Shown piece after piece: positions 5,796-20,841 of a DNA stretch of 64,000 bases. The notes under the pieces are model-generated. The model did not search any database. It had not been told where the DNA came from and was given only the letters and a program-made list of their open reading frames with translations. Both the position numbers and the translations under genes were made by a program. The DNA comes from Streptacidiphilus albus JL83 (GTDB lineage Bacteria; Actinomycetota; Actinomycetes; Streptomycetales; Streptomycetaceae), in the NCBI RefSeq assembly GCF_000744705.1, contig NZ_JQML01000001.1:2604001-2668000 (forward strand), in the 5' to 3' direction. Each line of letters starts with the position of its first letter. Positions within the stretch are counted from its first letter, which is position 1.

Positions 5796-7436
5796 CTACT
5801 TGGAGACCCAGACCTTGGTCAGGTCGACGAACCAGGACTGGGGCTGCACGAATCCGTGCACCTTCGGCGAGAGGGCGCGCGGATTGCGGTCGTTGACCAC
5901 GAACAGCCAGGGGGCGTCGGCGGTCACCCGGGCCAGGGCCTGGGTGTAGTCCTGCTGCCGGGTCGCCTGGTCGGTCGAGGCCGAGGCCGCCGCGATCAGC
6001 CGGTCCACCGCCGGGTCCGAGTAGTGCCCGGTCCAGAACGGGCTGTTGCTGCCGAGGAACAGCGGCAGCAGCGACTCGGACTGGAACAGCGTGGTGGACT
6101 GGGCGAGGGCGTCCGAGCCGAGCGCCACCTGTCCCTTGGCCTCCGCCGAGAGCAGGGTCGACCAGTCGATGGTGCGGATCTGCACGGTGATGCCGACGGC
6201 CGCGAGGTCGTGCTGGATCGCCTCGCTGATCGGCACCGGCAGCAGGTTGCCCGAGCCGGCCGTGGGGACGGTGACGGTGGTGGTGAACCCGTGGGCGAGA
6301 CCGGCCTGGGCGAGCAGCGCCTTGGCCTTGGCCGGGTCGTAGGAGTAGACGTTGCCGTTCGGGTCGTAGGCGAAGGTGCCCTTGGGCGCGGCCTGGTAGG
6401 CCGGCGAGGCGGTGCCGTGCAGCAGGTCCTGGGCGATGGCCTCGCGGTTGATCGCGTAGTTGGCGGCCTGGCGGACCAGCGGGTTGTTCCAGGGGGCCTT
6501 GGACTCGTCCAGGATCCAGTACCAGATCTGGTCGTAGCTGTTGGTGTCGATCTGCACGCCGTCGCGCTGGAGGGTCGGGATGTCGTCCGGGTTCGGGTAG
6601 TCGATCATGTTGACGTCGCCGGAGAGCAGCGCGGCGGTGCGGGCGGCCGGGTCGGGCAGGGACTTGATCACCAGCCGGTCCAGCCTGGGCGCCCCGCGCC
6701 AGTAGTGCTTGTTGGCCACCAGGTCGATCTCCTGGCCGGGGGTCTGCGAGACGAAGGCGAACGGGCCGGTGCCGACCGGGTGCTGGGCGAAGCCGGTGGT
6801 GCCGTACTTCCGCACCGCGGTCGGGCTGGCGATCAGGATGTGCGACAGGTCCTCGGGGAAGTGCCCGTTGCGGACGCTGGTGACCAGGACCACGTGGTCG
6901 GCGTCGGTCGCCCGGTACTGGGTGATGTCGCCGGCGTACTCGGTGGCGGCGGCGCCGAGCGCGGCGGTGTAGTAGGGACTGCCCTTCTTCAGGTAGCGGT
7001 CCAGGTTGAAGACCACCGAGGACGCGTCGAAGGCGGTGCCGTCCTGGAAGGTGACGCCCCTGCGGAGGGTGAAGGTCCAGGTCCGGCCGTCCGGGGCGAC
7101 GCTCCAGGAGGTCGCCAGGGCGCTGGTGATCGGGGCGGGCGCATCGGCCCGGGACAGGTCGTAGCGGGTGAGGCCGTCATAGATCTGGAAGCTCACCAGC
7201 GCGGTGCCCTCGTAGCCCGCGCCGCCGATGAGGGTGTCCGGATTGGGCAGGGTCCCGGTCGATCCGATGACCAGGGTCCCGCCGCTGCCGCCGGTGGCGG
7301 AGCTGTCGGCGCTGGTGGTGGCGGCGCCCGCGCTGCAGCCGGCCACGGCCGTCAGCAGCAGGGCGGTCAGCAGGGCCCTGGCCCGGGAGCGGATCCGGCG
7401 GCGTGGTCCGTCCTGGTGCGGCGGTCGGTTCGTCAT
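5796..7436 (-). CDS. ABC transporter substrate-binding lipoprotein, peptide/nickel (SBP_bac_5) family
   Basis: Extracytoplasmic solute receptor of about 546 residues. The N-terminus has an Arg-rich region, a hydrophobic helix and the lipobox VAGC (lipid-anchored Cys about residue 34). Family 5 features include the GRTWTFTLRRGVTFQDGTAF motif, DADHVVLVTS, and the long two-lobe C-terminus ending QSWFVDLTKVW. The ATG at 7436 follows AGGAGAG at good spacing. It lies 52 bases after the ATPase gene and just before the monooxygenase gene, so it is probably the receptor for this importer. The substrate may be an oligopeptide or another small molecule; no residue identifies it. Confidence 0.92.
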   Translation of the reverse strand: MTNRPPHQDGPRRRIRSRARALLTALLLTAVAGCSAGAATTSADSSATGGSGGTLVIGSTGTLPNPDTLIGGAGYEGTALVSFQIYDGLTRYDLSRADAPAPITSALATSWSVAPDGRTWTFTLRRGVTFQDGTAFDASSVVFNLDRYLKKGSPYYTAALGAAATEYAGDITQYRATDADHVVLVTSVRNGHFPEDLSHILIASPTAVRKYGTTGFAQHPVGTGPFAFVSQTPGQEIDLVANKHYWRGAPRLDRLVIKSLPDPAARTAALLSGDVNMIDYPNPDDIPTLQRDGVQIDTNSYDQIWYWILDESKAPWNNPLVRQAANYAINREAIAQDLLHGTASPAYQAAPKGTFAYDPNGNVYSYDPAKAKALLAQAGLAHGFTTTVTVPTAGSGNLLPVPISEAIQHDLAAVGITVQIRTIDWSTLLSAEAKGQVALGSDALAQSTTLFQSESLLPLFLGSNSPFWTGHYSDPAVDRLIAAASASTDQATRQQDYTQALARVTADAPWLFVVNDRNPRALSPKVHGFVQPQSWFVDLTKVWVSK

Positions 7437-7488
7437 GTGCGTTCTCTCCTGGTCGGGTCGGGTGCGGTGGCGCGGAGTCAGCGCTGGG

Positions 7489-8274
7489 TCAGCGCTGGGT
7501 CGGCGCGGCGGGGCGGTCGGCGGTGGCCGCCGCCAGCAGCGCCCGGGTGTAGGGGTGCCGGGGCGCCTCCCAGAGCTCGGCGGTCGGGCCCTGCTCGACG
7601 ACCCGGCCCTGCCGCAGCACGGACACCCGGTCGGCGAGGTGCCTGACCACCGCCAGGTCGTGGGAGATGAAGAGGTAGGCCACACCGGTGGTCGTCTGGA
7701 GCTCCGTCAGCAGGTCGATGATCCGGAGCTGCACGCCCTGGTCCAGGGCGGAGGTCGGTTCGTCGCAGACCACCAGCCGGGGCCGGGTGGCCAGCGCCCT
7801 GGCGATGGCCACCCGCTGCTGCTGGCCGCCGGAGAGCCCGCGCGGAAAGCGCCGCGCCAGCGCCGGGTCGAGTCCGACCTGCTCGAACAGGGCCGCCACC
7901 GCCTCCCGGCGCTCCCGTCGGGGCGTGCCGTTGACGGCGAGGGCGAAGGCCACCGAGGAGCCGGCCCGCAGGCTGGGGTTGAGCGAGCCGCCCGGGTTCT
8001 GCGGGACGAACTGCAGGCCGGAGCGGACCGCCCGGGCCGAGCGCCCGCGCAGCCGGAACGGGTCCCGTCCCTCGAAGCGGACGGTGCCGAGGTCGGGGGC
8101 GAGCAGCCCGAGGGCGATCCGGGCCAGCGTCGACTTGCCCGAGCCCGACTCACCGACCAGGCCCACCGTCTCGCCGGGCGCGACCTCCAGGCCGACGCCG
8201 TCCAGCGCGGTCCGACCGTCCGCGCCGGGGTAGCGCTTGGTCACGTTCTGCAGGGACAGCAGCGGGGCGGTCAC
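7489..8274 (-). CDS. ABC transporter ATP-binding protein (Opp/DppF-like)
   Basis: Cytoplasmic ATPase subunit of the peptide-type importer, 261 residues. Walker A GESGSGKS (about residues 40-47), signature LSGGQQQRVAIARAL, Walker B LVVCDEPTSALD and the H-loop LFISHDL are all intact. The QFVPQNPGGSLNP Q-loop and the C-terminal RHPYTRALLAA segment are typical of OppF/DppF proteins. The GTG start at 8274 overlaps the TGA of the upstream ATPase gene (GTGA), indicating translational coupling. It probably pairs with the upstream ATPase as a heterodimer. Confidence 0.93.
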   Translation of the reverse strand: MTAPLLSLQNVTKRYPGADGRTALDGVGLEVAPGETVGLVGESGSGKSTLARIALGLLAPDLGTVRFEGRDPFRLRGRSARAVRSGLQFVPQNPGGSLNPSLRAGSSVAFALAVNGTPRRERREAVAALFEQVGLDPALARRFPRGLSGGQQQRVAIARALATRPRLVVCDEPTSALDQGVQLRIIDLLTELQTTTGVAYLFISHDLAVVRHLADRVSVLRQGRVVEQGPTAELWEAPRHPYTRALLAAATADRPAAPTQR

Positions 8275-9122
8275 GGGCGGGCTCCCGGTCGGGCGGCGAC
8301 GAGTTCGGCGGTGAGGGCGTGTTCCGGCCGGTCGAGCACCTGCTCGGCCGGGCCGGTCTCGACGATCCGTCCGGCCTGCATCACGGCCACCCGGCCGCCG
8401 ATCCGGCGGGCCGCCCCGAGGTCGTGGGTGACCAGCAGCAGCGCGGTGCCGCGCTCCGCCCGCAGCCGGGCGAAGAGGTCCAGCACATGGGCCCGGACCA
8501 GGGCGTCCAGCGCGGTGGTGGGCTCGTCGGCGATCAGCAGCTCGGGCCCGCAGCAGATGGCGAGGGCGACCGCGGCGCGCTGCCGCAGACCGCCGGAGAG
8601 CTGGTGCGGAAAGCTGCGGGCGACCCGCTCGGGCTCGGTGATGCCGGCCGTGTCGAGCAGCCCGGGCACGGCCGCGCGGGCCGCGCGCCGGTCGGCGGCG
8701 ATCCGGTGCCGCAGCAGCACCTCGGCGAGCTGCGCGCCGATCCGGCGCAGCGGGTCCAGCGAGCCGGTCGGGTCCTGCGGGACGTAGCCGATCCGGCGGC
8801 CCCGGATCCGGGCGAGCTCGCGCTCGGGCCGGCCGGTCAGCTCGGTCCCGCCGAGTTCGACCCGTCCGTCGACCCGGGCACCGCGTCCCGGCAGGCCGAG
8901 CACGGTCCGCGCCAGCGTGGTCTTGCCGCTGCCGGAGCGGCCCAGCAGCACCAGCGCCTCGCCCGGGGCGACGGTCAGCGAGACCTCGTCCACGGCGAGC
9001 ACCGGACCCTCGGGGTGCGGGTGACGGACGCTCAGTCCGTGCACCGCCAGCGCCGGCGGAGGCGGGCCACTGCTCACCGGGGCGCCGCTCACCGGGCCGC
9101 CGCTCATCGGGCCACTGCTCAT
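8271..9122 (-). CDS. ABC transporter ATP-binding protein (Opp/DppD-like)
   Basis: Second ATPase subunit, about 283 residues. Walker A is GRSGSGKT, the signature is LSGGLRQRAAVAL, Walker B is LLIADEPTTALD and the switch His is in LLLVTHDL. The first 20 residues are built of five-residue repeats (MSSGP, MSGGP, VSGAP, VSSGP), encoded by four 15-bp direct repeats that include the start codon. The ATG at 9122 overlaps the permease stop as ATGA. A start at a later Met or Val in the repeat is possible. Confidence 0.92.
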   Translation of the reverse strand: MSSGPMSGGPVSGAPVSSGPPPPALAVHGLSVRHPHPEGPVLAVDEVSLTVAPGEALVLLGRSGSGKTTLARTVLGLPGRGARVDGRVELGGTELTGRPERELARIRGRRIGYVPQDPTGSLDPLRRIGAQLAEVLLRHRIAADRRAARAAVPGLLDTAGITEPERVARSFPHQLSGGLRQRAAVALAICCGPELLIADEPTTALDALVRAHVLDLFARLRAERGTALLLVTHDLGAARRIGGRVAVMQAGRIVETGPAEQVLDRPEHALTAELVAARPGARP

Positions 9123-9129
9123 CGGGCCA
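9070..9129. repeat. four tandem 15-bp repeats spanning the ATPase start codon
   Basis: Units at 9070-9084, 9085-9099, 9100-9114 and 9115-9129 share the core CTCAYCGGG. They encode the MSSGP-like pentads at the N-terminus of the DppD-like ATPase. Copy-number change would stay in frame. Confidence 0.75.
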
Positions 9130-10048
9130 CCGCCGTGAGCAGGTCGCGGCCCTCGCCGAGGCGGCGGCGCAGGGCCTCGCCGAGGGAGTTGAAGATCACC
9201 GAGACGACCAGGATCCACAGCCCCGGCAGCACCGCGACGGCCGGGTGCGTCAGCAGGCTGGGCCAGAGCTCGTTCAGCATGCTGCCCCACTCCGGGGTCG
9301 GCGGTTCCACACCCAGGCCGAGGAAGGAGAGCCCGGCCGCGTAGACCACGGACAGGCCGATCAGCGAGGAGCAGTAGACCAGCACCACCGGGGCCACCAC
9401 CGGCAGCACCTGACGCAGCGCCACGGCGATCCGTCCGGCGCCGCTGACCTGGGCGGCCTCCAGGTACTCGGCCGTGCGGATCCGCTGGACCTCGGTGAAC
9501 ACCACCCGGGCCACGGCCGGGGTGAGCACCACCGACAGGGAAAGCACCACCGCCTCCAGCCCGGTCCGCAGCACCGTCGCCACGGCCATCGCCAGCAGGA
9601 TCCCGGGGAACGCGTAGAGCACGTCCAGCGAGCGCAGCAGCGCCTGCTCGGTGACCCTGCCGCCGAGCCCGGCGGCGAGCCCGAGCGCGGTGCCGGCCGC
9701 CGCCGCCACCGCGACCGGGGCGAAGCCGCCGATCAGCGAGGGACGGGCGGCCCAGATCAACCGGCTGAGCAGGTCCCGGCCCTGGCCGTCGGTGCCGAGC
9801 AGGTGGCCCGCGGTGCCCGGGTCGAGCAGCCGGTCCTGCAGCGCGCCGGTCTCCGGCCCGTACGGGGCCAGCAGCGGCGCGGCGAGGGCGAGCAGCACCA
9901 GCAGCAGCGCCAGGACGGCGGGCAGCAGCAGTCCGAGGTCGGCGCCCGGGCGTCCGGCGCGGAACCGCAGCCGGCCGGTGCGCCGCGGCGCCGGCACGGT
10001 CCCCGTCGTCCCGCTCGTCGACGATCCCCTCATCGACGACCCCCTCAT
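9119..10048 (-). CDS. ABC transporter permease (Opp/DppC-like)
   Basis: Inner-membrane permease of 309 residues. After a variable N-tail (MRGSSMRGSSTSG) there are about six hydrophobic helices. The TDGQGRDLLSRLIWAARPSL motif is characteristic of OppC/DppC. The EAA loop appears as EYLEAAQVSGAGRIAVALRQ, and the C-terminus reads PGLWILVVSVIFNSLGEALR. The ATG overlaps the upstream permease stop as ATGA. A second ATG five codons on, within a short direct repeat, is an alternative start. Confidence 0.92.
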   Translation of the reverse strand: MRGSSMRGSSTSGTTGTVPAPRRTGRLRFRAGRPGADLGLLLPAVLALLLVLLALAAPLLAPYGPETGALQDRLLDPGTAGHLLGTDGQGRDLLSRLIWAARPSLIGGFAPVAVAAAAGTALGLAAGLGGRVTEQALLRSLDVLYAFPGILLAMAVATVLRTGLEAVVLSLSVVLTPAVARVVFTEVQRIRTAEYLEAAQVSGAGRIAVALRQVLPVVAPVVLVYCSSLIGLSVVYAAGLSFLGLGVEPPTPEWGSMLNELWPSLLTHPAVAVLPGLWILVVSVIFNSLGEALRRRLGEGRDLLTAVAR

Positions 10049-10989
10049 CGACGGACTCGGGGATCGATCAGCGCATGCGCCGTGTCCACCAGGATGTTGA
10101 CGCCGACGAAGGCCACCGCGACCAGCAGCACGCCGCCCTGGACCAGCGGCAGGTCGCGCGCGGACAGCGCGTTGTAGAGCAGTTGGCCGATCCCGGGCCA
10201 GGAGAACAGGGTCTCCACGAACACCACGCCTTCGAGCAGATAGGCCAGTTGCAGGCCGCCGATGGTGAGCAGCGCGGGCGAGGCGTTGTGCAGGCAGTGC
10301 CGCAGCACCGCTGCGCGGCTCAGGCCCCGGGCCCGCAGCGCGTCCGGCAGTTCGCCGGCCAGGACCTGGCCGAGCGCGGCCCGGAAGACCCGGGCGGTGA
10401 GACCGAGCGGCACCAGCGCCGCCGACACCGCCGGCAGCACCAGGTGCCGGAGCTGGTCGAGGGCGCCGCCGTCGCCGAAGACGTCGTGGGTGCCGCCGGC
10501 CGGCAGCACCCGCCAGCGGATCGCGAACAGCGCGATCAGCAGCAGCGCCACCGAGTACTGCGGGGCGGAGACGGACAGCGTGCTCAGCGCGCCCGAGAGC
10601 CGGCCGGCCGGACCGCCGGGCCGGACCGCGCCGAGTGCGCCCAGCAGCGTCCCGCCGACCAGCACCAGCACGAACGCCGCGCCGGTGAGGATCAGGGTCT
10701 CGCCGAAGGCGGGCAGCAGCAGTCGCAGGACCGGGCGCTGGGTCGCGATCGAGGTGCCCAGGTCCCCGTGCAGCGCGTGCCACAGCCAGCTCAGGTACCG
10801 CACCGGCAGCGGCCGGTCGAGGCCGAGGCGCCGGGTCAGCTCCTGCCGGGCCGCCGCGGGCGCGCCGGGTCCGAGGAAGGCGGTCACCGGGTCGCCCGGG
10901 ACCAGCGCCACGGTGGCGAAGACCACCACGGTCACCCCGGTCAGGGTCGGCACCGCCAGCAGCAGCCGGCGCAGCAGGAACCGTCTCAT
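10045..10989 (-). CDS. ABC transporter permease (Opp/DppB-like)
   Basis: Inner-membrane permease of 314 residues and the first gene of the importer operon. The start MRRFLLRRLLLAVPTLTGVT and the following VPGDPVTAFLG, LGLDRPLPVRYLSWL and GDLGTSI segments are classic DppB/OppB. The EAA loop is DALRARGLSRAAVLRHCLHN, and the end reads VETLFSWPGIGQLLYNALSA. The genes permease B, permease C, ATPase D, ATPase F, binding protein and monooxygenase follow on one strand with three 4-base overlaps, so they are probably one transcript. Confidence 0.93.
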   Translation of the reverse strand: MRRFLLRRLLLAVPTLTGVTVVVFATVALVPGDPVTAFLGPGAPAAARQELTRRLGLDRPLPVRYLSWLWHALHGDLGTSIATQRPVLRLLLPAFGETLILTGAAFVLVLVGGTLLGALGAVRPGGPAGRLSGALSTLSVSAPQYSVALLLIALFAIRWRVLPAGGTHDVFGDGGALDQLRHLVLPAVSAALVPLGLTARVFRAALGQVLAGELPDALRARGLSRAAVLRHCLHNASPALLTIGGLQLAYLLEGVVFVETLFSWPGIGQLLYNALSARDLPLVQGGVLLVAVAFVGVNILVDTAHALIDPRVRR

Positions 10990-11394
10990 CGCGGGCGCTC
11001 CACGGGACCGGCGACGGCGGGGCGGGCGGGGGCGGCCATGGCGGAGTCCTCACGGGTGCGGGGCGGTCGGGTGCGCGGGGCGGTCGGGTACGGGCGGCGG
11101 TCGGGTGCGGAAGCGGTCGGCTACGCGGGGCGGTCGGGCCGGGTGTCGGCGGCGGGCGCTGCGGCGCCGGGGCGGGGCCGTCGGTTCCGGCGGCGGGGCG
11201 GGCGGCCCGCCGGGCCTGGTACGGGAGGCGGGCCCGGCGGGCACCGCGGTGTGCTGCGGCCGGCCTCGCGGCTGCTGTGACGGAGTCTGGACGCGCCGCG
11301 ACCGGTCAGCCAGTCAGGTCTTCATGCTGATACCGGAGGTCACAGGCTGCGCCGGAGCCGCCGCGAACCGGCCGCCGGGTGGCCGGAGCCATCC

Positions 11395-11424
11395 TTGACC
11401 TGCTAATGAGCACCCAACTACGCT
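11395..11424 (+). promoter_or_regulatory. putative promoter (-35 TTGACC, -10 TACGCT)
   Basis: TTGACC at 11395-11400 and TACGCT at 11419-11424 are separated by 18 bases. The predicted start point falls at or next to the ATG at 11432, so any transcript would be leaderless for that frame. Sequence match only. Confidence 0.5.
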
Positions 11425-11431
11425 GTGACGC

Positions 11432-11533
11432 ATGGGAATACGACGCTCCGACTTCACGCTGGTCGGCATCGGCGGTTCCTGGCACCGCAGATGCTTCGAC
11501 GAGCTCTGTCGCCCGCGCCCCCTCTCCGGCTGA
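11432..11533 (+). CDS. possible leaderless 33-residue small protein or leader peptide
   Basis: ATG at 11432, TGA at 11531-11533. The product starts MGIRRSDFTLVGIGGSW and ends HRRCFDELCRPRPLSG. It sits exactly where transcription from the 11395-11424 promoter would begin. Leaderless mini-genes with Arg/Cys-rich ends are known in streptomycetes upstream of sulfur or amino-acid genes, but I do not recognise this one. The next plus-strand gene begins 323 bases downstream. Coding status is uncertain. Confidence 0.3.
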   Translation: MGIRRSDFTLVGIGGSWHRRCFDELCRPRPLSG

Positions 11534-11856: not shown

Positions 11857-12690
11857 ATGGGTGCGTTGACCGGGCTGCCCGGGGCCGTCCCCGGGCCGGG
11901 AGCACCCCGGACCGTCCGGCGGGGCGGGCGGGTGCACCCCGCCGCCGCGCGGTCCGGGACGGCCGCCCTGGACGTCGAGATCAACAATCCCTTCGACCTG
12001 GTCGCCGGGCACCAGCTGCTCAGGGACTCCGGGGCCGGGAGCATCCGGGTGTTCCTGGTGGAGCGCCATCCGGTGGCCAGTGCCGGGCTCCGCAGCGTGC
12101 TGGCCGCCGAGCCGGGCATGATCGTGGTCGGCAGCTCCGCCACCACCGAGCGCGCCCTGGAGGCGGTGCGCCGGGTGCGACCGGACGTGTTGCTGCTCGG
12201 ACGCGGCGACTCGCTGGCGGAGGACCTGGCCGCCGTGCTCCGGCTGCGCGGCCCCGAGGGGGCGCCGGAGACCAAGGTGCTGTTGCTGCGGCGGGCCGAG
12301 AGCACCGCCGAGGCGAGCCGGGTGCTGCTCGCCGGGGCCAGCGGCTGCTTCCCGCTGGACCTGGCCGAGGAGCGGATCATCGGCGCCGTGGCGATGGCCG
12401 CGGCCGGCGGCTCGATCTTCCTGCCGGCTCCCCCGGCGGCCCGGGTGCACTGGGCCAGCGTCGCCGGGAACGGAGCCGAACCGCCGCCGCAGCAGTGCGG
12501 GCTGACCGACCGTGAGCGGGACGTGCTCGCCCAGCTCGCCCGGGGTCTGAGCAACGCCGAGATCGCCCGGGAACTGGCGCTGGCGGAGGCCACGGTGAAG
12601 AAGCACCTGACCCAGGCGATGCGCAAGACCGGGCAGTCCGACCGGCTCCGGGCGGCGCTCTACGCGCACCGGCACGGCCTGGCGAGCTGA
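11857..12690 (+). CDS. LuxR-type regulator with degenerate receiver domain (atypical response regulator)
   Basis: DNA-binding regulator of about 277 residues. Residues ~63-175 follow a receiver fold (IRVFLVERHPVASAGLRSVL, then RVRPDVLLLGRGDSL, then LLAGASGCF). The acidic pair is Glu69-Arg70 instead of Asp-Asp, the usual phospho-acceptor Asp is Gly115, and the conserved Lys is absent, so phosphorylation is unlikely. The C-terminal LuxR HTH (LTDRERDVLAQLARGLSNAE to VKKHLTQAMRKTGQSDR) is intact. It sits directly before the five-gene biosynthetic operon and is the best candidate for its pathway-specific regulator, perhaps sensing a small molecule. The start is uncertain because the frame is open upstream. 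Confidence 0.82.
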   Translation: MGALTGLPGAVPGPGAPRTVRRGGRVHPAAARSGTAALDVEINNPFDLVAGHQLLRDSGAGSIRVFLVERHPVASAGLRSVLAAEPGMIVVGSSATTERALEAVRRVRPDVLLLGRGDSLAEDLAAVLRLRGPEGAPETKVLLLRRAESTAEASRVLLAGASGCFPLDLAEERIIGAVAMAAAGGSIFLPAPPAARVHWASVAGNGAEPPPQQCGLTDRERDVLAQLARGLSNAEIARELALAEATVKKHLTQAMRKTGQSDRLRAALYAHRHGLAS

Positions 12691-12729: not shown

Positions 12730-12730
12730 G

Positions 12731-12829
12731 GGCGACCTTTGGAGCATCCGCGGTCGCCCATGGTCGCCGCAATCGGCTCCGTTGGGCGCTACTGACGCCC
12801 GGGCGGCGACCCTAGCGTTGCTGGCGACC
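12731..12829 (+). promoter_or_regulatory. promoter region of the biosynthetic operon with five GGCGACC/GGTCGCC heptamers
   Basis: The heptamer occurs at 12731-12737 (GGCGACC), 12752-12758 and 12762-12768 (GGTCGCC), and 12805-12811 and 12823-12829 (GGCGACC). A streptomycete-like -10, TAGCGT, is at 12813-12818, giving a start point near 12825. The clustered symmetric heptamers are candidate binding sites for the upstream LuxR-type regulator. Inference from pattern only. Confidence 0.45.
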
Positions 12830-12876: not shown

Positions 12877-13638
12877 ATGAGCGATGCTCCCGACCGGGCC
12901 GTCGCACGCACAGTCGCCGCACCCGCGGCCGCGGCGCCCACGGCCGCCGTCCCCGCCACCGTCGGCCCCCGCTACCGGTCGATGCCAGAGGCCGAGCGCT
13001 CGGCGCTGTGGCGCCAGCGCCTGCACGAGGCGGAGGCCGGGCTGACCAGGCTGCTGGTCCAACGCGGAGACGACACACCCCATCTGACCGACTGGTTCGC
13101 CCTGCAGTCCGCCCTGTTCGCCGACCTGCCCGACCCGTTGACCGCACCCGCCGCCGACTGGCAGCGGATCTTCTTCCGGGACCAGGCCCTGATGGAACGC
13201 TTCCTGGTGACCCGCTACGGCGAGGAGATCCTCGCCGACTGGGCCCGGGCCAACGCCGAGGTGTACCGGGAGGTCGAGCCCGACCACGGCCGGGGCGCGG
13301 CCGACCCGATCCACCGCATCGCCCGCCAGGCCGAGCTCTACGGCTCGGACTACGAGTTCGACGAGGACGAGGGGCCGGCGCTCACCATCACCCACTGCTC
13401 GATCTGGGACTACCGGGAGCGGGCCCGGCGCAGCGGGGTCCGGCTGACCCTCGCCTCCCCGTGCACCTACTGCACCGAGGCGCTCACCGCCAACATCGAG
13501 GTCAAGGGCTACCGGGCGAGCCACCGGCTGCGCACCGGGCCCACCGGGCACGGCTGCCGCTGGGAGGCCGCAGACCCGGGCGACCCGGCCGACGACACCG
13601 AGCGCGCACCCGCGCCCGACGACGCCCGGGAGGCGTGA
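12877..13638 (+). CDS. unknown protein, first gene of the biosynthetic operon; Cys-rich C-terminal domain
   Basis: 253 residues; I do not recognise the family. An Ala-rich N-tail (about 1-30) precedes a helical region with many Trp/Phe/Arg (about 36-160). The C-terminal part has HC174, C196-T-Y-C199 and G-H-G-C227-R-W. That spacing recalls V4R or ATC-hydrolase-type small-molecule domains, but the resemblance is weak; the cysteines could instead bind a metal. The acidic tail looks disordered. It has the strongest ribosome binding site of the operon (AAGGAG, 6 bases before ATG). Its TGA overlaps the next ATG (TGATG), so it is coupled to the AsnB-type gene and probably belongs to the same pathway. 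Confidence 0.8.
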   Translation: MSDAPDRAVARTVAAPAAAAPTAAVPATVGPRYRSMPEAERSALWRQRLHEAEAGLTRLLVQRGDDTPHLTDWFALQSALFADLPDPLTAPAADWQRIFFRDQALMERFLVTRYGEEILADWARANAEVYREVEPDHGRGAADPIHRIARQAELYGSDYEFDEDEGPALTITHCSIWDYRERARRSGVRLTLASPCTYCTEALTANIEVKGYRASHRLRTGPTGHGCRWEAADPGDPADDTERAPAPDDAREA

Positions 13639-15485
13639 TGTGCGGAGTCACCGGCTGGGTCGACTGGGAGGTCGACCTGCGGACCCGGGCGCGGACCGTC
13701 CACGCCATGACCGACACCCTCGGCTGCCGGGGCCCGGACGCCGACGGCGTCTGGCTGTCCCGGCACGCGGCCCTGGGCCACCGGCGGCTCGCGGTGATCG
13801 ACCCGGCCGGCGGCCGGCAGCCGCTGGCCGCCGAGCGGGGCGCCGCGGCCGAGGAGTCGCCGCGGGCGGTGCTCAGCTACAACGGCGAGCTCTACAACCA
13901 CCGGGAGCTGCGGCGGGAGCTGGAGGCCCTGGGCCACGTCTTCCGGAGCCGCTCCGACACCGAGGTGGTGCTCCGGGCCCACCTCCAGTGGGGCGCCGAG
14001 GCCCCGGCCCGGTTCAACGGCATCTTCGCCTACGCCCTGTGGGACCCGGCGCGCGAGGAGCTGCTGCTGGTCCGCGACCACCTCGGCATCAAACCGCTGT
14101 ACTGGCACCGGCACCCCAGCGGCGTGCTGTTCGGCTCCGAACCCAAGGCGGTGCTGGCCAACCCGCTGTTCACCGCCGAGCTGGACGGCGAGGGCATCGC
14201 CGAGCTGTTCGCGCTCCCGGCCGCCCCCAGCGCCGGCCACGGCCTGTTCCGGGGACTGCACGAGGTGCGCCCCGGCCATCTGGTCCGCTTCGGCCGCGGC
14301 GGCGCCCGGGAGACCCGCTACTGGGCCCTGGTCTCCCGTACGCACACCGACGACGCGGCGACCACCGGGGCGACCGTCCGGGCGCTGCTCGCCGACTCCG
14401 TGGAACGCCAGCTGCTCAGCGATGTGCCGCTGTGCACCCTGCTGTCCGGCGGCGTGGACTCCAGCGCGATCACCGCACTCGCCGCCTCGGCCCGGGAGCG
14501 GAACGGCCTCGGCAAGGTCACCAGCTTCTCGGTGGACTTCCCCGGCAGCGCCGACCGCGTCCCCGACGCCTGGCGCACCAGCCAGGACGCGCCCTACGTC
14601 CGGGCCGCGGTCGAGCACATCGGCACCCTGCACACCTCGGTCGTGGTCCCCGACGACGACCTGCTCGACGCCCGCGACCAGGTGCTGCGCGCCCGCGACC
14701 GGCCCGGCTGGGGCGAGATGGACGCCTCGCTGCACCTGCTCTTCCGGGAGGTCCGGCGGCACTCCACGGTGGCGCTCTCCGGCGAGGTCGCGGACGAGGT
14801 CTTCGGCGGCTACCCGTACTTCCACGACGCCGCCGCGCTCGCCGCCGACACCTTCCCCTGGCTGCACGGCCGGACCACGCCGGCCGCGCTGCTGCGCCCC
14901 GAGGCCGCCGCCGAGGCCCGGCCGGAGGAGTACACCGCCGAGGCGTACCGCGGCTCGCTGGCCGAGGTGGACCGGCTGGAGGGCGAGCAGGGCGCCGACC
15001 GGCGCCTGCGCGAGGTCTCCCACCTGGCGCTGACCCGGTGGCTGCCGCCGCTGCTGGACCGGGTGGACCGGGTCAGCATGTCCGTCGGCCTGGAGGTCCG
15101 GGTGCCCTTCGCCGACCACCGGCTGGTGGAGTACCTCTGGAACGTCCCCTGGGCGCTCAAGGCGCCCGAGGGACGGTCCAAGGGGCTGCTCCGGGACGCG
15201 GTCCGGGACCTGCTGCCGCCGATGGTGACCGACCGGCCGAAGAGCGGCTACCCGTCGACGCCGGCGGTCCGCTACACCGAGGTCCTCACCGCCCGCGCCC
15301 AGGAGCTGCTGGCCGACCCGAACGCCCCGGTCTTCCAGCTGGTCGACCGGGCGACGGTGCGGCGGCTGCTGGCCGACGGCGAACCGCTGCCGAGCCCGCG
15401 CACCGCGCCCAATCCGGTCGGCGGCCTGGACCACCTGGTCCAGGTGGACGAATGGCTCCGGGCCTACCGGGTGGGGCTGCGATGA
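13638..15485 (+). CDS. asparagine synthase (glutamine-hydrolysing), AsnB-type amidotransferase
   Basis: 615 residues, full length for AsnB. The N-terminus MCGVTGWVDW keeps the catalytic Cys2 of the class II glutaminase domain, with SYNGELYNHRELRRELE and LLLVRDHLGIKPLYW following. The synthetase domain has the ATP pyrophosphatase loop LLSGGVDSSAITAL (about residue 268) and LSGEVADEVFGGYPYF. The intact Cys2 argues for glutamine-dependent amide formation and against a lasso cyclase or beta-lactam synthetase, which usually lack it. Placed between an unknown gene and oxidative genes, it probably amidates a carboxylate intermediate rather than only making asparagine. ATG follows GGGAGGCG. Confidence 0.92.
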   Translation: MCGVTGWVDWEVDLRTRARTVHAMTDTLGCRGPDADGVWLSRHAALGHRRLAVIDPAGGRQPLAAERGAAAEESPRAVLSYNGELYNHRELRRELEALGHVFRSRSDTEVVLRAHLQWGAEAPARFNGIFAYALWDPAREELLLVRDHLGIKPLYWHRHPSGVLFGSEPKAVLANPLFTAELDGEGIAELFALPAAPSAGHGLFRGLHEVRPGHLVRFGRGGARETRYWALVSRTHTDDAATTGATVRALLADSVERQLLSDVPLCTLLSGGVDSSAITALAASARERNGLGKVTSFSVDFPGSADRVPDAWRTSQDAPYVRAAVEHIGTLHTSVVVPDDDLLDARDQVLRARDRPGWGEMDASLHLLFREVRRHSTVALSGEVADEVFGGYPYFHDAAALAADTFPWLHGRTTPAALLRPEAAAEARPEEYTAEAYRGSLAEVDRLEGEQGADRRLREVSHLALTRWLPPLLDRVDRVSMSVGLEVRVPFADHRLVEYLWNVPWALKAPEGRSKGLLRDAVRDLLPPMVTDRPKSGYPSTPAVRYTEVLTARAQELLADPNAPVFQLVDRATVRRLLADGEPLPSPRTAPNPVGGLDHLVQVDEWLRAYRVGLR

Positions 15486-16018
15486 GCAGCGCCGTGCAGG
15501 GCGGCCGGACGGCGGAGGCCGAGGCACTCCGCGGGGCCGCACGGCAGTGGTCCACCGGGGTCGCCCTGGTCACCGTCCAGGACGGCGAGGAGCTCTTCGC
15601 CAAGACCGTCTCCTCCTTCTGCGTCCTCTCCCTGGAACCGCCCCTGGTCAGTGTCGCGATCGACCGGCGCAGTCCGCTGGTGCGGGCCGCGCGCGGCAGC
15701 GGCAGCTACGCCGTGTCGATCCTGAACAGCCGTCAGGAACAGGTCGCCCGGCGCTTCGCCACCCCGGGTGCGGGCCGCGCGCTCGGCCCGTTCACCGGGG
15801 TGCCGATGCGCGCCGCCGAGTCCGGCGCACCGGTGCTGGAGCACTGCCTGGCCTGGTTCGACTGCCGGTTGGACGGCGTCCTGCCCGGCGGCGACCACGC
15901 CGTCCTGGTCGGCCGGGTGCTCTCGGCCGACCCGGGCGGCGGCGAGCCGCTGCTCTACCACGACGGCGGCTACCGCCTCCTCGACCATTCCCCGCACGCC
16001 CCGACGGGAGCTCCCTGA
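15482..16018 (+). CDS. flavin reductase (HpaC-like, FMN-binding split barrel)
   Basis: NAD(P)H:flavin oxidoreductase of 178 residues that would supply reduced FAD to the HpaB-type oxygenase encoded by the next gene. The split-barrel signatures STGVALVTVQDGEE, SFCVLSLEPPLVSVAIDRRS and SYAVSILNSRQEQVARRFA are clear. Its ATG overlaps the AsnB stop (ATGA) and its stop overlaps the next start (TGATG). The adjacent reductase and oxygenase genes form a standard two-component monooxygenase. Confidence 0.93.
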   Translation: MSSAVQGGRTAEAEALRGAARQWSTGVALVTVQDGEELFAKTVSSFCVLSLEPPLVSVAIDRRSPLVRAARGSGSYAVSILNSRQEQVARRFATPGAGRALGPFTGVPMRAAESGAPVLEHCLAWFDCRLDGVLPGGDHAVLVGRVLSADPGGGEPLLYHDGGYRLLDHSPHAPTGAP

Positions 16019-17571
16019 TGACCCGCACGACCACCCCCGGCACCGCCCGGGGCCTGCTCACCGGCGACCGCTACCGGGACGAGCTCGACGACGGCCGCGA
16101 GCTCTACCTCGACGGCCGGCGGATCACCGACCCGGCCGACCACCCGGCGTTCAAGCCGGCCGTCGACGAACTCGCCCGGCTGCTCGACTTCCAGCACGAC
16201 CCCGAGCACCGTTCGCTGCTCACCTGGAAGGACCCGGAGTCCGGCCACCGCCTCGCCCGGGGCTACCAGCCGCCGCGCACCCTGGAGGAGTTGCGGACCC
16301 AGCGGCGCAGCGCCGAGTTCTGGCACGCGGAGGCGCTGGGCCAGCACGGGCGCTCCCCGGCCTTCATGGCCTCGATCGCGGTCGGCGTCTACGACTTCCG
16401 GCACCGGCTGGAAGCCGCGCACCCCGGCTTCGGCGCCAACGCCGAGGCCTGGTACCGGCACTGCGCCGAGAACGACCTGGTGCTCTCGCACGCCCTCGGC
16501 GACCCGCAGATCGACCGCTCCGCCAACCCGCTGGACGATCCCGACCTGGCGCTGCGGGTGCTGTCCGAGAACGAGCAGGGCATCGTGGTGCGCGGGGCCA
16601 AGCAGCTGACCACGCTGGCCCCGCTGGCGCACGAGGTGCTGGTCTACCTGTCGGCCTCGTTCGCCGAACGGCAGGGCGAGCAGTTCGTGGTCTGGTTCGC
16701 GCTGCCGCTGAACACCCCCGGGCTGGTGACGCTCTGCCGGGAGCCGCTGGGCAGCGCGCCCTGGGGCCACTCCCACCCGATCGGCGCCCGCTACGACGAG
16801 CAGGACGCCATGCTCTTCTTCGACGACGTGCTGGTGCCCTGGGACCGGGTGTTCCTGCTGCGCGACAGCTCCCTGGCCCGGACCGGCCTGGGCCGGATCA
16901 ACGCCTGGAGCGCCTACATCGGCCACGTCCGCTACCGCGAGCGGCTGCGCACCCTGCTGGCGACGGCGACGCTGGTGGCCGAGAGCATCGGGGTGGACGG
17001 GTTCCGCAACATCCAGGAGGACCTGGGCCGGCTGGCCGGCTACGCCGAGCTCACCGAGTACTTCCTGGACGCCGCCGAGGCCCGGGCCACGGTCACCGAC
17101 AGCGGGCTGCTGGCCCCCGGGGACACCTCGGCCGCCCGGGTCTGGTCGGCCGAGGTGGCGGGCAGTGCGGTGTCGGTGCTGCGCTCCATCGGCGCCTCCG
17201 GCCTGTTGATGCAGCCCACCGCCAACGACCTGGCCAACCCCCGGCTCCGGCCGCACCTGGACCGCTACATGCGCGGGCGGGGGATCGGGGCCGAGGAGAA
17301 GTCCCGGCTCTTCCGGCTCGCCTGGGAGCTCACCGGGGACGGCTTCGGCCAGCGCCAGGACCTGTACGAGTACGTCCACCGGGGCGACCTGGCCCGCAAC
17401 CGGATCAACCTGTTCAAGCGCTACGACCAGAGCGGCGCCCGCGAGCGGGTGCGGCAGCTGGTCACCGCGCCCGCAGCACCCGAACCCGCGGCGCCCGCGT
17501 CCGCGGCACCCGCACCTGCACCCGCACCCGCACCTGCACCCGCACCCGTCGCCACGGAGGTCCAGCAGTGA
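16018..17571 (+). CDS. 4-hydroxyphenylacetate 3-monooxygenase-type (HpaB family) flavin-dependent hydroxylase
   Basis: FADH2-dependent aromatic ortho-hydroxylase family, 517 residues. Typical features: RTGLLTGDRYR-like start, YLDGRRITDPADHPAF, LTWKDPESGHRLARGYQPPR, GIVVRGAKQLTTLAP, FFDDVLVPWDRVFL and the C-terminal YMRGRGIGAEEKSRLFRLAW, followed by DGFGQRQDLYEYVHRGD. In biosynthetic pathways relatives hydroxylate tyrosine-derived or carrier-bound phenols, so the substrate here is probably phenolic or another aromatic. The last ~35 residues are an Ala-Pro repeat tail. The gene overlaps both neighbours by 1-4 bases. Confidence 0.9.
   Translation: MTRTTTPGTARGLLTGDRYRDELDDGRELYLDGRRITDPADHPAFKPAVDELARLLDFQHDPEHRSLLTWKDPESGHRLARGYQPPRTLEELRTQRRSAEFWHAEALGQHGRSPAFMASIAVGVYDFRHRLEAAHPGFGANAEAWYRHCAENDLVLSHALGDPQIDRSANPLDDPDLALRVLSENEQGIVVRGAKQLTTLAPLAHEVLVYLSASFAERQGEQFVVWFALPLNTPGLVTLCREPLGSAPWGHSHPIGARYDEQDAMLFFDDVLVPWDRVFLLRDSSLARTGLGRINAWSAYIGHVRYRERLRTLLATATLVAESIGVDGFRNIQEDLGRLAGYAELTEYFLDAAEARATVTDSGLLAPGDTSAARVWSAEVAGSAVSVLRSIGASGLLMQPTANDLANPRLRPHLDRYMRGRGIGAEEKSRLFRLAWELTGDGFGQRQDLYEYVHRGDLARNRINLFKRYDQSGARERVRQLVTAPAAPEPAAPASAAPAPAPAPAPAPAPVATEVQQ
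17508..17550 (+). repeat. CACCYG hexanucleotide repeat encoding an Ala-Pro tail
   Basis: Tandem CACCCG/CACCTG units near the 3' end of the HpaB-type gene encode alternating Pro-Ala. Such tracts vary in length between strains and probably form a flexible tail. Confidence 0.7.
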
Positions 17572-18413
17572 GCACGTCCGCCGTCGAGATACAGGCCAGC
17601 ACCCTGGCCGGCTACGCCGAGGCCAGCCGGCTCCGCCAGGTGCAGGACCGGGACTGGGTGCTCGACCAGGTCACCGGGGCGCCCGAGGTCCTGGTCGACC
17701 TGGGCAGCGGGATCGGCCAGCTGCTGGAGAGCGCGCTGGACCGGCTGCCCTCGCTGCGGCTGGCCGTCGGCCTGGAGCGCTCCGAGCACCGGATCGCCGA
17801 GGCCGGGGAGCGGCTGCGGCGGCACGGCGACCGGGTCGCCCTGCACCGGGCCGACCTCACCTCGCCCCCGCCGCTGGAGCTCGGCGCGGACGTGGTGACC
17901 ATGACCTCGGTCCTGCACTGGCTCCACCCGGTGGAGGACCGGATCGCGGACTGGGTCGCCGACCGGCTGAACCCGGACGGCCGGTTCCTGCTGACGACCT
18001 ATCACCCGGCCGCCGACGAGCACGGGCTCGGCGGCGAGGACGACATCGTCCGCGACGCGCTGACCGCTCTGGGCGTCGAACGGGACGCCGTGCCAGGGCT
18101 GTTCGCCCAGCGGCGGATCGTCCCGATCGCCACCCGCACCCGGAGCACCGACGGCCTCGACGAGCTGCTCGGCCGCCGGCTGCGGACCGCCGCCGTGCTG
18201 GAGCGGGAGGCGGTGGTCACCGTCGGCAGCGCGGCCCAGTACGAGCACTTCCATGCCGCCACCTTCGGGGACTACTACAGTCGACTGGTCGAACCCGCGC
18301 TGGGCGCCGCGTTCTTCCGCGCGGTGGGCGAGGCCGCCTGGCGTCGGCAGCAGGAGCTCGGCCGGGTGAGCAGCATGCCCGTCCGCTTGTGGACGCTCGC
18401 CCCGCTGGGGTGA
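17568..18413 (+). CDS. SAM-dependent methyltransferase (class I)
   Basis: 281 residues, last gene of the operon. Motif I is VLVDLGSGIGQLLE; the acidic residue ending strand 2 lies in VGLERSEHRIAEAGERL; VVTMTSVLHWLHPVEDRIAD is motif II and LNPDGRFLLTTYHP is motif III. The GTG start overlaps the oxygenase TGA (GTGA). A perfect terminator hairpin follows 6 bases after the stop. In this context it probably O- or N-methylates the hydroxylated product. The acceptor atom cannot be read from sequence. Confidence 0.88.
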   Translation: MSTSAVEIQASTLAGYAEASRLRQVQDRDWVLDQVTGAPEVLVDLGSGIGQLLESALDRLPSLRLAVGLERSEHRIAEAGERLRRHGDRVALHRADLTSPPPLELGADVVTMTSVLHWLHPVEDRIADWVADRLNPDGRFLLTTYHPAADEHGLGGEDDIVRDALTALGVERDAVPGLFAQRRIVPIATRTRSTDGLDELLGRRLRTAAVLEREAVVTVGSAAQYEHFHAATFGDYYSRLVEPALGAAFFRAVGEAAWRRQQELGRVSSMPVRLWTLAPLG

Positions 18414-18418: not shown

Positions 18419-18453
18419 GGCCCGGGACCGCTCCCCCACCCCGGTCCCGGGCC
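18419..18453 (+). terminator. terminator of the biosynthetic operon
   Basis: Perfect 12-bp stem (18419-18430 with 18442-18453), 11-base loop, just after the methyltransferase stop and before the ribosome binding site of the next gene. Confidence 0.75.
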
Positions 18454-18493: not shown

Positions 18494-19372
18494 ATGCCAG
18501 GTCCCCTTGTCAGTCAGGAGTTGGGGTCCTTTCTCCGGGCCCACCGGGAGCGGCTGCAGCCGTCCGACGTCGGGCTGAGCGCGACCGAGCGCCGACGCAC
18601 CCCCGGGCTGCGCCGGGAGGAGGTGGCCTCGCTCTCCGGCGTCGGACTGGCCTGGTACACCTGGCTGGAGCAGGGCCGGGTGACCGCCTCCCGGCAGGTG
18701 CTGGAGGCGGTCGCGCGGGCGCTGCGGCTGGACCCGGCCGGGCTCCGCCACGCCATGCGGCTGGCCGGGCACCACGAGCCGGTCGGCCTGGCCGACGAGG
18801 CCTGCGCCGACGAGCTGGCCGCCTCGGTGCAGCCGGTGCTCGACGCCTGGCCGGCCACCCCGGCCGTACTGGTGGACCGGCACTTCGACCTGCTCGGCTG
18901 GAACGCCCCCTGGAGCGCGCTCTGGGGGGCGCCGGACGTGCTGCCCGCGGACCGCCGCAACCTGCTCTGGATCATGGCGGCGGACCGGCGGCTGCGCCGG
19001 GTGCTGCCGGACTGGCAGCCGCTGGCCATGAACGTCTTCCAGTACTTCCGGGCCCAGGCCGGGCTCTCCCGCGCCGACACCCGGACCGAGGAGGTCTACC
19101 GCCGGCTGGACGAGGACGCCCCTGAGCTCAGCCACTGGTGGGGCTGCCACTCGGTGGCGGAGCTGACCGCCCGCCGGGTCACCGTCGACCCGGTGGGCGG
19201 CCCGGGCCCGATCCGGCTGACGCTCTCCTCGTTCCGCCCAGTCGACGACCCCTCGGCGCTGGTCCTGCTGTTCACCCCGCTCGCCGAGGAGGACCGGCGC
19301 CGACTGGCCGACCTCACCCAGCACCCGCTGCGCGCGGTCGGACCGTGCGACGCCGACCGGCAGGCCGGCTGA
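18494..19372 (+). CDS. HTH transcriptional regulator, XRE/MmyB-like
   Basis: About 292 residues. HTH signature RRRTPGLRREEVASLSGVGL and AWYTWLEQGRVTASRQVLE, followed by the MmyB-like domain with the conserved WNAPWSALWG, RRNLLWIMAADRRLRRVLPDW and HPVGPGPIRLTLSSF-like strands. The ATG follows GGAGGCGAGC. It lies immediately downstream of the biosynthetic operon and tail to tail with an MFS exporter gene, so it may control export or the pathway. It is one of three paralogs in the window (others near 2.1 and 41.3 kb), all beside MFS genes. Confidence 0.88.
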   Translation: MPGPLVSQELGSFLRAHRERLQPSDVGLSATERRRTPGLRREEVASLSGVGLAWYTWLEQGRVTASRQVLEAVARALRLDPAGLRHAMRLAGHHEPVGLADEACADELAASVQPVLDAWPATPAVLVDRHFDLLGWNAPWSALWGAPDVLPADRRNLLWIMAADRRLRRVLPDWQPLAMNVFQYFRAQAGLSRADTRTEEVYRRLDEDAPELSHWWGCHSVAELTARRVTVDPVGGPGPIRLTLSSFRPVDDPSALVLLFTPLAEEDRRRLADLTQHPLRAVGPCDADRQAG

Positions 19373-19397: not shown

Positions 19398-19445
19398 CTC
19401 GGCACCGGCTCAGCCGGCTCGGCACCGGCTCAGCTCGGCACCGGC
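19398..19445. repeat. three copies of CTCGGCACCGGC
   Basis: Copies at 19398-19409, 19418-19429 and 19434-19445, with CTCA/CAG spacers, lie around the 3' end of the MFS gene in the convergent gap. They may form part of a terminator-like structure; no clear stem was seen. Confidence 0.6.
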
Positions 19446-20725
19446 CCGGCCGCCTCGGCGCGCCGCAGGCCGCGACCGGTCAGCAGGGAGCCGGCCGCGG
19501 CGAGGAGGCCGAAGGCCAGGCCGATCGTCAGCACCCCGGTCGAGACGTCGGTGAAGGAGCCCACCACCCAGGCCCCGAGGCCGGTTCCGGCGTACATGGT
19601 GGAGGTCAGCCAGGCGTTGGAGGTGGCCCGCAGCTCGGGCGCGACGCTGCCGGTGAGCAGCTGCTGGTCGATCACGAAGCCGCCGCTGGCCAGGAACCAG
19701 ACCGCCACCCCGACCAGGGCGAGGACCAGCCACGGGCTCTCCGCGGTCAGCGCGATGCCGGCCGCCAGCAGCACGCCCCAGCGCAGCGGCAGCCCCGGCC
19801 GCTCCCGGCCGGCCGCCCGCGCCCGGTCGCCCAGCCGTCCGCCGGCCATCGAGCCGACCACGCTGCCCGCCCCGACCAGGATGCCGACCAGGCCGAGCTC
19901 GGTCACCGTCAGCCGGAACCGCTGGGCCAGCAGCACCCCGAGGAAGGTGTACGCCCCCAGGTTGGCGGTGTGGAAGACCAGGTTGACCAGCAGCGCCCGG
20001 CGCAGCGCGGGATCGGCCCAGCCGGCCACGATCGCGCGCACCGCCCCGGTCCGCGCGGGCCGCGACCCCGGGTCCGTGCCCGGCTCCGTCCCCGGCTCCG
20101 GGGCGGCGGCCGGGGGCCGCGCCGCCACCTGGCGGAACAGCAGCGGCAGGGTGGCGGCGGTGCCGATCGCCAGCGCCAGGAAGGCCGAGCGCCAGCCGGC
20201 CAGCCCGGCCAGGAAACCCCCGAGCGGTACGCCGATCACCTGGCCGCAGGAGAACAGCGCCATACCGAATCCGAGCGCCCGGCCGCGCACCCGGTCCGGC
20301 ACGGTCTCCGCGATATGGGCCCAGATGGCCGGTCCGGCGGCCGCGGCGGCCAGACCGGCCACGGCCCGCGCGGCCACCAGCAGCAGCAGCCCGGAGGCGA
20401 GCGCCGCCGCCGCGTTGGACAGCACGAACAGCGCGGCCCCGGCGAGCAGCGTCCGACGGCGGCCGAACCGGTCGCTGAGCAGCCCCAGGAAGGGCGCGCT
20501 GAAGGCGTAGACCAGGACGTACGCGGTGACGCTGGTGGCGGCGGCGGCCTTGCTGACATGGATGCTGGCGGCGATCGTCGGCAGCAGCGGCGACACCAGG
20601 AAGGTCTCCGTCCCGAAGAGGAAGAGCAGGACGAAGACCCCCGCGTAGCGGAGCCGGTCGTAGCTGTCGGCCTCGGCGGCGACCGGTTCGACCGGTGCCT
20701 CGGAGATGCTGCTCAAGCGAATCAC
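19430..20725 (-). CDS. MFS transporter, DHA1-like (12-TMS) exporter
   Basis: About 431 residues from the GTG chosen here. Motif A is LGLLSDRFGRRRTLLAGAAL, motif C is GQVIGVPLGGFLAGLAGWR, and about 12 hydrophobic helices are visible. A Pro/Glu/Thr-rich cytoplasmic loop (PAAAPEPGTEPGTDPGS) divides the halves. Start choice is weak: the GTG at 20725 has AGAGG too close, a TTG at 20716 is better spaced, and the frame is open to 20836. It sits beside the biosynthetic operon and may export its product. A 19-bp palindrome lies upstream at 20842-20860. Confidence 0.85.
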   Translation of the reverse strand: MIRLSSISEAPVEPVAAEADSYDRLRYAGVFVLLFLFGTETFLVSPLLPTIAASIHVSKAAAATSVTAYVLVYAFSAPFLGLLSDRFGRRRTLLAGAALFVLSNAAAALASGLLLLVAARAVAGLAAAAAGPAIWAHIAETVPDRVRGRALGFGMALFSCGQVIGVPLGGFLAGLAGWRSAFLALAIGTAATLPLLFRQVAARPPAAAPEPGTEPGTDPGSRPARTGAVRAIVAGWADPALRRALLVNLVFHTANLGAYTFLGVLLAQRFRLTVTELGLVGILVGAGSVVGSMAGGRLGDRARAAGRERPGLPLRWGVLLAAGIALTAESPWLVLALVGVAVWFLASGGFVIDQQLLTGSVAPELRATSNAWLTSTMYAGTGLGAWVVGSFTDVSTGVLTIGLAFGLLAAAGSLLTGRGLRRAEAAGPVPS

Positions 20726-20841
20726 AACCTCTGGAGCGCGGCGGGGGCCGGCCCCGCAGGGCACGGCGCCGGCGGGATCGGACCCGCCCGGTGCCGCCAT
20801 CCTGGGCCGGTCCCGGCCGGCCAACCAGGCAGGCATTCATC

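Follow-up and report, generated by a model that had tools for sequence, protein, structure and literature searches.

A conserved Streptomycetaceae operon with a divergent Opp-type importer: a candidate locus for a small secreted metabolite

Staphylopine (Cnt) metallophore loci combine synthesis of a small molecule with export by a major facilitator superfamily (MFS) pump and import by an Opp-type transporter. In the dipyrimicin cluster, the AsnB-like enzyme Dip5 is proposed to amidate an aromatic acid and an O-methyltransferase is also encoded (PMC13122635). Benzohydroxamate cassettes of the TsnB type usually include a methyltransferase gene (PMC13418202). The locus described here lies in a 64,000-nucleotide stretch of Streptacidiphilus albus JL83 (contig NZ_JQML01000001.1, positions 2,604,001 to 2,668,000), hereafter the window. 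It contains five plus-strand genes, A–E, at 12877–18413, whose coordinates and frames check out. None of the literature matches listed describes a pathway built from these genes, although they cover open-licence papers only and could leave a description undetected; the first-pass annotation of this DNA had likewise named no such pathway.

We propose that A–E and their surroundings are dedicated to a single small metabolite that is secreted and taken up again, one half of the locus producing it and the other receiving it through a dedicated importer, a reading we hold with middling confidence. Several patterns argue for it. Across 24 loci, A–E keep their order without exception, an MmyB-like regulator gene is always nearby, an MFS pump gene is nearby in 23, and an Opp permease gene diverges from a LuxR-type gene in 22. 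The promoter of A is conserved in 20 of 20 aligned regions, and an Arg and a His of the HpaB-type oxygenase are kept in 24 of 24 copies. Two distant relatives of A (loci L055 and L056) lie beside AsnB, Opp, and 3-deoxy-D-arabinoheptulosonate 7-phosphate (DAHP)-synthase-like genes. Finally, five genomes keep a small open reading frame (ORF) of the locus without intact A–E, four of them together with the importer.

Conservation of the five-gene operon

With A as the query, matches were obtained in 31 of 394 sampled Streptomycetaceae genomes. Near full-length orthologues (at least 67% identity) were present in 23 of those 31, own genome included, and the other matching genomes carried a 62-residue relic fragment (G107) or more distant or shorter matches. 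The 24th A–E locus is L002, from Streptomyces sp. YS415; the scan that yielded it gave one further locus, relic L003. All 24 loci carry A-B-C-D-E in the same order and on the same strand (by tblastn for 23, the window being the 24th), which rules out a chance assembly of five genes. Co-occurrence of the five genes across genomes had been suggested as a check on the operon, and it was found, in order, at every locus with a near full-length A orthologue. Identities across these loci were 75–85% for B and 75–87% for D (tblastn). Within the window's own genus, A was present in 1 of 14 genomes, and a class-wide sample gave 3 of 394 (own genome, G097, and G477). The distribution of A–E is thus patchy, covering a minority of Streptomycetaceae across several genera.

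Adjacent genes overlap in the window by 1 base at A/B, 4 at B/C, 1 at C/D, and 4 at D/E. The first-pass annotation had described five overlapping genes at these positions, and its coordinates, frames, and 1–4-base overlaps were all correct. All 24 loci retain the 4-base overlap between B and C; the cross-locus count is given for this junction, and some D/E values (−127 to −328) as well as odd values for C/D in L044 and L051 are treated as start-picking artefacts. In L033 the gene caller overlooked E, and in L051 it overlooked C; both genes are found by tblastn, C in two pieces. We also note that B in L033 (9620–11442) and C in L051 (7777–8234) each appear split into two overlapping or adjacent pieces, by a frameshift or a sequencing error. 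What had been called a perfect terminator downstream of E is a perfect 12-bp stem, but it has no T-run, and an intrinsic-terminator scan reported nothing at 18419–18453. Because a stem of at least nine pairs follows E in only 13 of the 24 loci, it is a common but not a fixed feature.

Importer, regulators, and small ORF around the operon

Neighborhoods were compared by clustering the called genes in 32 fetched stretches and the window. Conservation extends beyond A–E to an importer, an LLM-class oxidoreductase, two regulators (LuxR-type and MmyB-like), a small ORF, and an MFS pump (see the table). The constant neighborhood consists of a minus-strand block with the importer and LLM genes (4715–10989), followed by the LuxR gene, A–E, the MmyB-like gene, and the reversed MFS gene. 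The earlier picture of a compact five-gene pathway therefore holds for the run itself, which is real, but falls short of the conserved unit: the divergent importer and LLM gene, the small ORF, the promoter of A, and the loci without A–E had all been overlooked. A LuxR-type regulator had been placed in front of A–E, and its GerE domain (5.3e-15) bears this out. The MFS pump named as a neighbor is indeed nearby in 23 of 24 loci, but the MmyB-like gene (18494–19372) separates it from the operon.

Features of the locus in window coordinates
Feature	Coordinates	Strand	Evidence and remarks
LLM-class, F420-type oxidoreductase	4715..5740	-	TIGR03841 238 bits, cut-off 213.65; cluster 12, 20 loci
Opp-type (family 5) solute-binding protein	5796..7436	-	PF00496 2.1e-87; cluster 11, 21 loci
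Opp/Dpp-type ABC ATPase	7489..8274	-	PF00005, PRK11308 1.7e-70; cluster 0
Second Opp/Dpp-type ABC ATPase	8271..9044	-	NikD/OppD-type matches; cluster 0
Opp-type permease C	9119..9997	-	PF00528, OppC_N; cluster 6, 24 loci
Opp-type permease B	10045..10989	-	PF00528, PF19300; cluster 4, 25 loci
Conserved non-coding block, candidate regulatory site	11307..11346	+	40 bases, between importer operon and small ORF; 23 intergenic regions aligned
Small-ORF promoter (predicted)	11395..11424	+	TTGACC, 18-base spacer, TACGCT; ATG 7 bases further on
Small ORF, 33 aa, MGIRRSDFTLVGIGGSWHRRCFDELCRPRPLSG	11432..11533	+	Conserved, apparently leaderless, unannotated; between importer and LuxR
LuxR/NarL-type regulator	11857..12690 (start 11857 or downstream, uncertain)	+	GerE 5.3e-15; cluster 5, 25 loci
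A–E promoter/operator (predicted)	12730..12818	+	GGCGACC...GGTCGCC dyad, TTCGGGGC-like box, TAGCGT -10
Gene A	12877..13638	+	Unknown protein, four invariant Cys; no Pfam/NCBIfam match; weak profile match to ATC hydrolases
Gene B	13638..15485	+	AsnB-type glutamine-dependent amidotransferase, Cys2 intact; TIGR01536; best PDB 7ylz TsnB9
Gene C	15482..16018	+	Flavin reductase, putative partner of D; PF01613 8.9e-35
Gene D	16018..17571	+	HpaB-type flavin-dependent oxygenase; PF11794 4e-81, PF03241 4.5e-42; best PDB Thermus HpaB 2yyg
Gene E	17568..18413	+	S-adenosylmethionine (SAM) methyltransferase, GTG start; PF08242 8.7e-11 (Methyltransf_12/25)
Stem 3' of E	18419..18453	+	Perfect 12-bp stem, 11-base loop, no T-run
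MmyB-like regulator (XRE + MLTR_LBD)	18494..19372	+	PF17765 1.1e-29, HTH_31; 24/24 A–E loci
MFS efflux pump	19430..20836 (downstream start 20725 possible)	-	PF07690 6.8e-48; 23/24 A–E loci

The divergent Opp/LuxR pairing seen in 22 of the 24 A–E loci is present in relic L003 as well. At the two loci where it was not seen, the stretch ends there (L051) or a different upstream gene is found (L054). The stretch read at L049 showed no MFS gene. In L047, L048, and L051, other genes lie between the LuxR side and A–E. Elsewhere in the window, at 2144–4636, a second MmyB-like regulator gene (minus strand) lies beside another MFS gene (plus strand). Two loci with distant A relatives, L057 and L058, have an MFS gene in the same cluster as the latter, and next to it in L057 is a regulator gene in the cluster of the former.

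The small ORF is conserved as a peptide. Over its first 27 codons at 24 loci, a set that takes in relic L003 and leaves out L054, pN/pS is 0.27 in frame, against which the two alternative frames give 1.9 and 2.1, and identity is 86% inside the ORF versus 34–48% in the flanking stretches. TTGACC and a TANNNT hexamer precede the ATG in each of the 23 loci inspected, 13 of which have TAGGNT, and the same promoter is found in loci L135–L138, which lack A–E. As the promoter hexamers end a few bases before the ATG, the ORF is predicted to be leaderless. A degenerate 30-base pattern for it matched 27 of 394 Streptomycetaceae genomes, with a reversed control at 0, and 1 of 197 in a class-wide sample, the one being the own genome; no NCBIfam model matched it. 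None of the 23 intergenic regions contained a simple Zur, DmdR, or Nur pattern, and identification of a metallophore by its regulator box was rejected. Upstream of A, the LuxR–A intergenic regions of 20 of the 24 loci were aligned: TAGCGT is present in all 20, and a GGCGACC arm, which 13 of them match exactly, faces a GGTCGCC-like sequence; most regions carry a box like CCGTTCGGGGCT. From the conservation of these promoter elements, A–E would plausibly be controlled by a pathway-specific activator, for which the LuxR protein is a plausible candidate.

The small ORF is kept without intact A–E in five genomes, and the importer in four of the five. Four of them (G174, G092, G192, and G128) retain the small ORF and the MmyB-like gene, three with the importer and LLM gene and G192 without. 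Genome-wide, these four have no D match and no A orthologue, G192 having a distant A relative elsewhere, and their B-like proteins reach at most 51% identity. The stretches read, L135–L138, contain no LuxR gene, A–E, or close MFS gene, genes C and E having been sought in the stretches only; the importer and LLM gene are kept in three of them, with the importer in L135, L136, and L138. The fifth is relic L003 (G107, Kitasatospora phosalacinea NRRL B-16230), where fragments of A and E adjoin at 10001–10563, B, C, and D were not found by tblastn, and the importer, LLM, LuxR, MmyB-like, and MFS genes are retained. Its small ORF has a Ser in place of the first conserved Cys. Because L135–L138 keep the small ORF before the MmyB-like gene without LuxR, A–E, or a close MFS gene, its likeliest role, judged from this context, would be that of a regulatory leader peptide; the leader behind it is too GC-rich for single-sequence folds to discriminate an attenuator hairpin. 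Loci with uptake genes but without A–E would be consistent with a product shared outside the cell and strains that only receive it; L135–L138 may instead be remnants.

This separation of importer and A–E bears on two other accounts. An unrelated Opp/LLM nutrient importer might simply adjoin a small orphan pathway, and the importer does occur without A–E in three genomes, as A–E do without a close Opp permease in G328/L054. Such an accident of neighborhood appears quite unlikely given the divergent pairing in 22 of 24 A–E loci from several genera and the return of Opp genes near the A relatives in L055, L056, and G477. Alternatively, the locus could take up and modify a foreign compound for detoxification or catabolism, with Opp importing it, the LLM enzyme and A–E altering it, and the MFS pump expelling it. 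An importer able to persist without A–E agrees with that account, as does the variant in G477, a genome from another family, which comprises importer, LLM, A, HpaB, and methyltransferase genes (A, D, LuxR, MmyB, and Opp genes, with E and LLM further on). We nevertheless regard it as unlikely, since an ATP-spending AsnB and a methyltransferase suit synthesis better, as do the DAHP-synthase-like neighbors of A relatives (families assigned by eye). The D match in G477 spans one TGA.

The conserved small ORF could also be the precursor of a ribosomally synthesized and post-translationally modified peptide (RiPP), with B, D, and E as its modifying enzymes and the peptide-type ABC transporter as its carrier. 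Its residue-by-residue conservation agrees with this, and an AsnB-like enzyme is reported to modify the C-terminus of a RiPP (PMC13060819). However, precursor and modifying enzymes each occur without the other: the small ORF is found without D in four genomes, and neither G328/L054, where A–E are present, nor G477 gave a pattern match, promoter–ORF match, or credible tblastn match to it. The small ORF also lies well away from A–E, upstream of LuxR and under a separate promoter. The RiPP account was therefore demoted and seems highly improbable.

Predicted chemistry of the encoded enzymes

Returning to our proposal of a dedicated metabolite locus, we can postulate the steps that A–E might perform. 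Both Pfam and NCBIfam agree with the families first assigned from the sequence, namely an AsnB-type enzyme (B), a reductase (C), an HpaB-type oxygenase (D), a methyltransferase (E), and no match for A. Gene D carries both HpaB domains (HpaB_N, 4e-81; HpaB C-terminal, 4.5e-42) but scores 346.8 bits against the 4-hydroxyphenylacetate (4-HPA) 3-hydroxylase equivalog TIGR02309, below its NCBIfam cut-off of 480.2; the substrate of D is therefore not fixed as 4-HPA. D was aligned to Thermus HpaB, in which we take Arg100, Tyr104, and His142 to be active-site residues, and equivalents of the Arg and His are kept in 24 of 24 copies. The suggestion that HpaB and a reductase hydroxylate an aromatic substrate agrees with this, as hydroxylation of a phenol would fit the conserved Arg and His. 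C, which overlaps D by one base in the window, is its putative partner. E had no PDB relative at 1e-5.

In the proposed scheme, D, with reduced flavin from C, would hydroxylate a phenolic ring beside an existing hydroxyl group, and E would methylate the product. B would activate a carboxylate with ATP and form an amide by transferring nitrogen from glutamine. A might carry out a hydrolase-like or other step. The product would leave through the MFS pump and be recaptured by the Opp importer, after which the LLM enzyme may process it. Control would run through the leaderless 33-aa ORF, with gating by the LuxR and MmyB-like regulators. The chemistry predicted for A–E is thus the hydroxylation, methylation, and amidation of what is probably an aromatic acid, with an aromatic amide as the inferred product.

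Gene B contains GATase_7 (PF13537) and Asn_synthase (PF00733) domains, and its N-terminus reads MCGVTGW, in keeping with the intact Cys2 reported earlier. It passes the ordinary asparagine-synthetase family threshold (TIGR01536, 464.6 bits against a cut-off of 267.1). Among solved structures, the hydroxyamidotransferase TsnB9 is its best match (7ylz; 501 bits, 4e-149), with E. coli AsnB at 2.7e-40. B could accordingly resemble trichostatin TsnB9 in function, and the locus would then take hydroxylamine nitrogen from glutamyl hydroxamate to build a metal-chelating aryl hydroxamate. Besides the wide gap between TsnB9 and E. coli AsnB, such a route could draw support from a close TsnB9 relative that converts benzoic acid to benzohydroxamic acid (PMC13418202). 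Against it, a paralogue of B in the same genome scores higher than TsnB9 (641 bits, 55% identity), so the similarity is not specific, and the sole oxygenase of the operon is of the HpaB type. The hydroxamate route was demoted from main reading because of that paralogue, and we consider it improbable, though TsnB9-like chemistry of B is possible. Because the paralogue outscores TsnB9, neither amide nor hydroxamate is specifically indicated, and the same holds for the aromatic amide that the first-pass annotation had put forward as the product: B passes the ordinary cut-off, and G477 has no B orthologue.

Neither Pfam nor NCBIfam has a model for the protein family of gene A: it matched neither collection, and the ATC hydrolase model PF14196 was unmatched for A and three relatives. 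Its four Cys are invariant across alignable relatives. Profile–profile comparison to ATC hydrolases gave P 2.7e-4 and a probability of 18.7% in the best run and P 0.0017 and 6.2% in the reverse direction; the alignment of A used for these and the default-setting runs left out L061_8, whose frame looked wrong. Default settings gave P 0.0035 (9.3%), whereas ten unrelated families scored 0.24–0.91 and none of 40 shuffles fell below 0.19; thin profiles gave P 0.21 (0.3%). The profile of A would thus resemble ATC hydrolases above chance, but with probabilities of 6–19%, and 0.3% in the thin-profile attempt, the likeness is only a lead. An AlphaFold2 model of A from two sequences (pLDDT 56.7) was too poor for a fold search.

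More distant relatives of A offer some chemical context, with families assigned by eye. In L055 and L056, the only loci where an A relative has both AsnB and Opp genes, A is joined to these genes beside apparent DAHP synthases; no HpaB, reductase, or methyltransferase matches were found there. Shorter A relatives lie near Rieske-oxygenase-like and DAHP-synthase-like genes in L057 and L058 and near ligase genes and genes resembling those for 3-amino-4-hydroxybenzoate (3,4-AHBA) synthesis in L059. The apparent common theme is shikimate-linked aromatic chemistry, joined in the closer relatives by Opp transport. With their tandem AsnB, Rieske subunits, and 3,4-AHBA-type enzymes, the L055–L059 loci are possibly further aromatic pathways.

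Weighing the proposal against known systems

Several observations weigh against a dedicated metabolite locus with re-uptake. The main locus showed no gene for an aromatic precursor, and "aromatic" draws on HpaB and on the neighbors of distant A relatives. At the position of Tyr104 in Thermus HpaB, all 24 copies of D carry Phe, as does the D of G477. G477 has neither B nor C within 48 kb, its best B match elsewhere having 35% identity, so amidation and a dedicated reductase would be dispensable. Importer and A–E also occur apart: L135, L136, and L138 have only the former, and G328/L054 has A–E, LuxR, MmyB, MFS, and LLM genes but no close Opp permease, by a cut-off that is informative for G328 and too strict for the more diverged Opp genes of G477. 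Moreover, Opp importers often carry unrelated peptides.

Taken further, the product could be a shared chemical currency of Streptomycetaceae: a hydroxylated, methylated, and amidated small aromatic, made without a nonribosomal peptide synthetase, polyketide synthase (PKS), or terpene synthase, and sent out by a dedicated pump and recaptured through Opp as a signal or metallophore. Receiver-only strains would retain uptake, LLM, and regulator genes; production would be gated by a leaderless 33-aa peptide that senses cell state during its own translation; and A would found a new enzyme family of shikimate-derived pathways. We offer this composite only tentatively, and doubt that all of its parts will hold together. 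Either way, A–E represent a conserved, regulated multi-gene candidate pathway in a heavily mined bacterial family. Because none of the usual kinds of core enzyme is encoded among A–E (no PKS gene was found there), cluster finders based on core enzymes may pass over it. If the proposal is true, export, dedicated re-uptake, and uptake-only strains would make public-good or signaling chemistry testable, and the small ORF would offer a compact means of studying the switching of such a pathway.

Each of the closest known systems shares part of this organization. Like the two-component HpaB/HpaC system of Thermus (HpaB, 2yyg), the locus has both HpaB domains in D, an adjacent flavin reductase, and the Arg and His; it differs in that D misses the NCBIfam equivalog cut-off and has Phe for Tyr104. 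The trichostatin TsnB9/benzohydroxamate cassette (PMC13418202) likewise has an AsnB-type enzyme, which acts on an aryl or polyenyl acid, TsnB9 being the best solved relative of B, but it has an amidooxygenase with an accessory subunit where A–E have an HpaB-type oxygenase. The dipyrimicin cluster, for its part, makes a 2,2'-bipyridine, and neither "HpaB" nor "4-hydroxyphenylacetate" occurs in that paper's text (PMC13122635). Mycobacterial leaderless regulatory small ORFs likewise have an ATG at the predicted transcription start and regulatory genes downstream; unlike them, the ORF in the window lacks a poly-Cys run and is conserved over the whole peptide. With Cnt loci, finally, the locus differs in having no opine-synthesis family among its Pfam and NCBIfam matches and no Zur-, DmdR-, or Nur-like pattern, but shares the presence of an Opp importer and an MFS exporter together.

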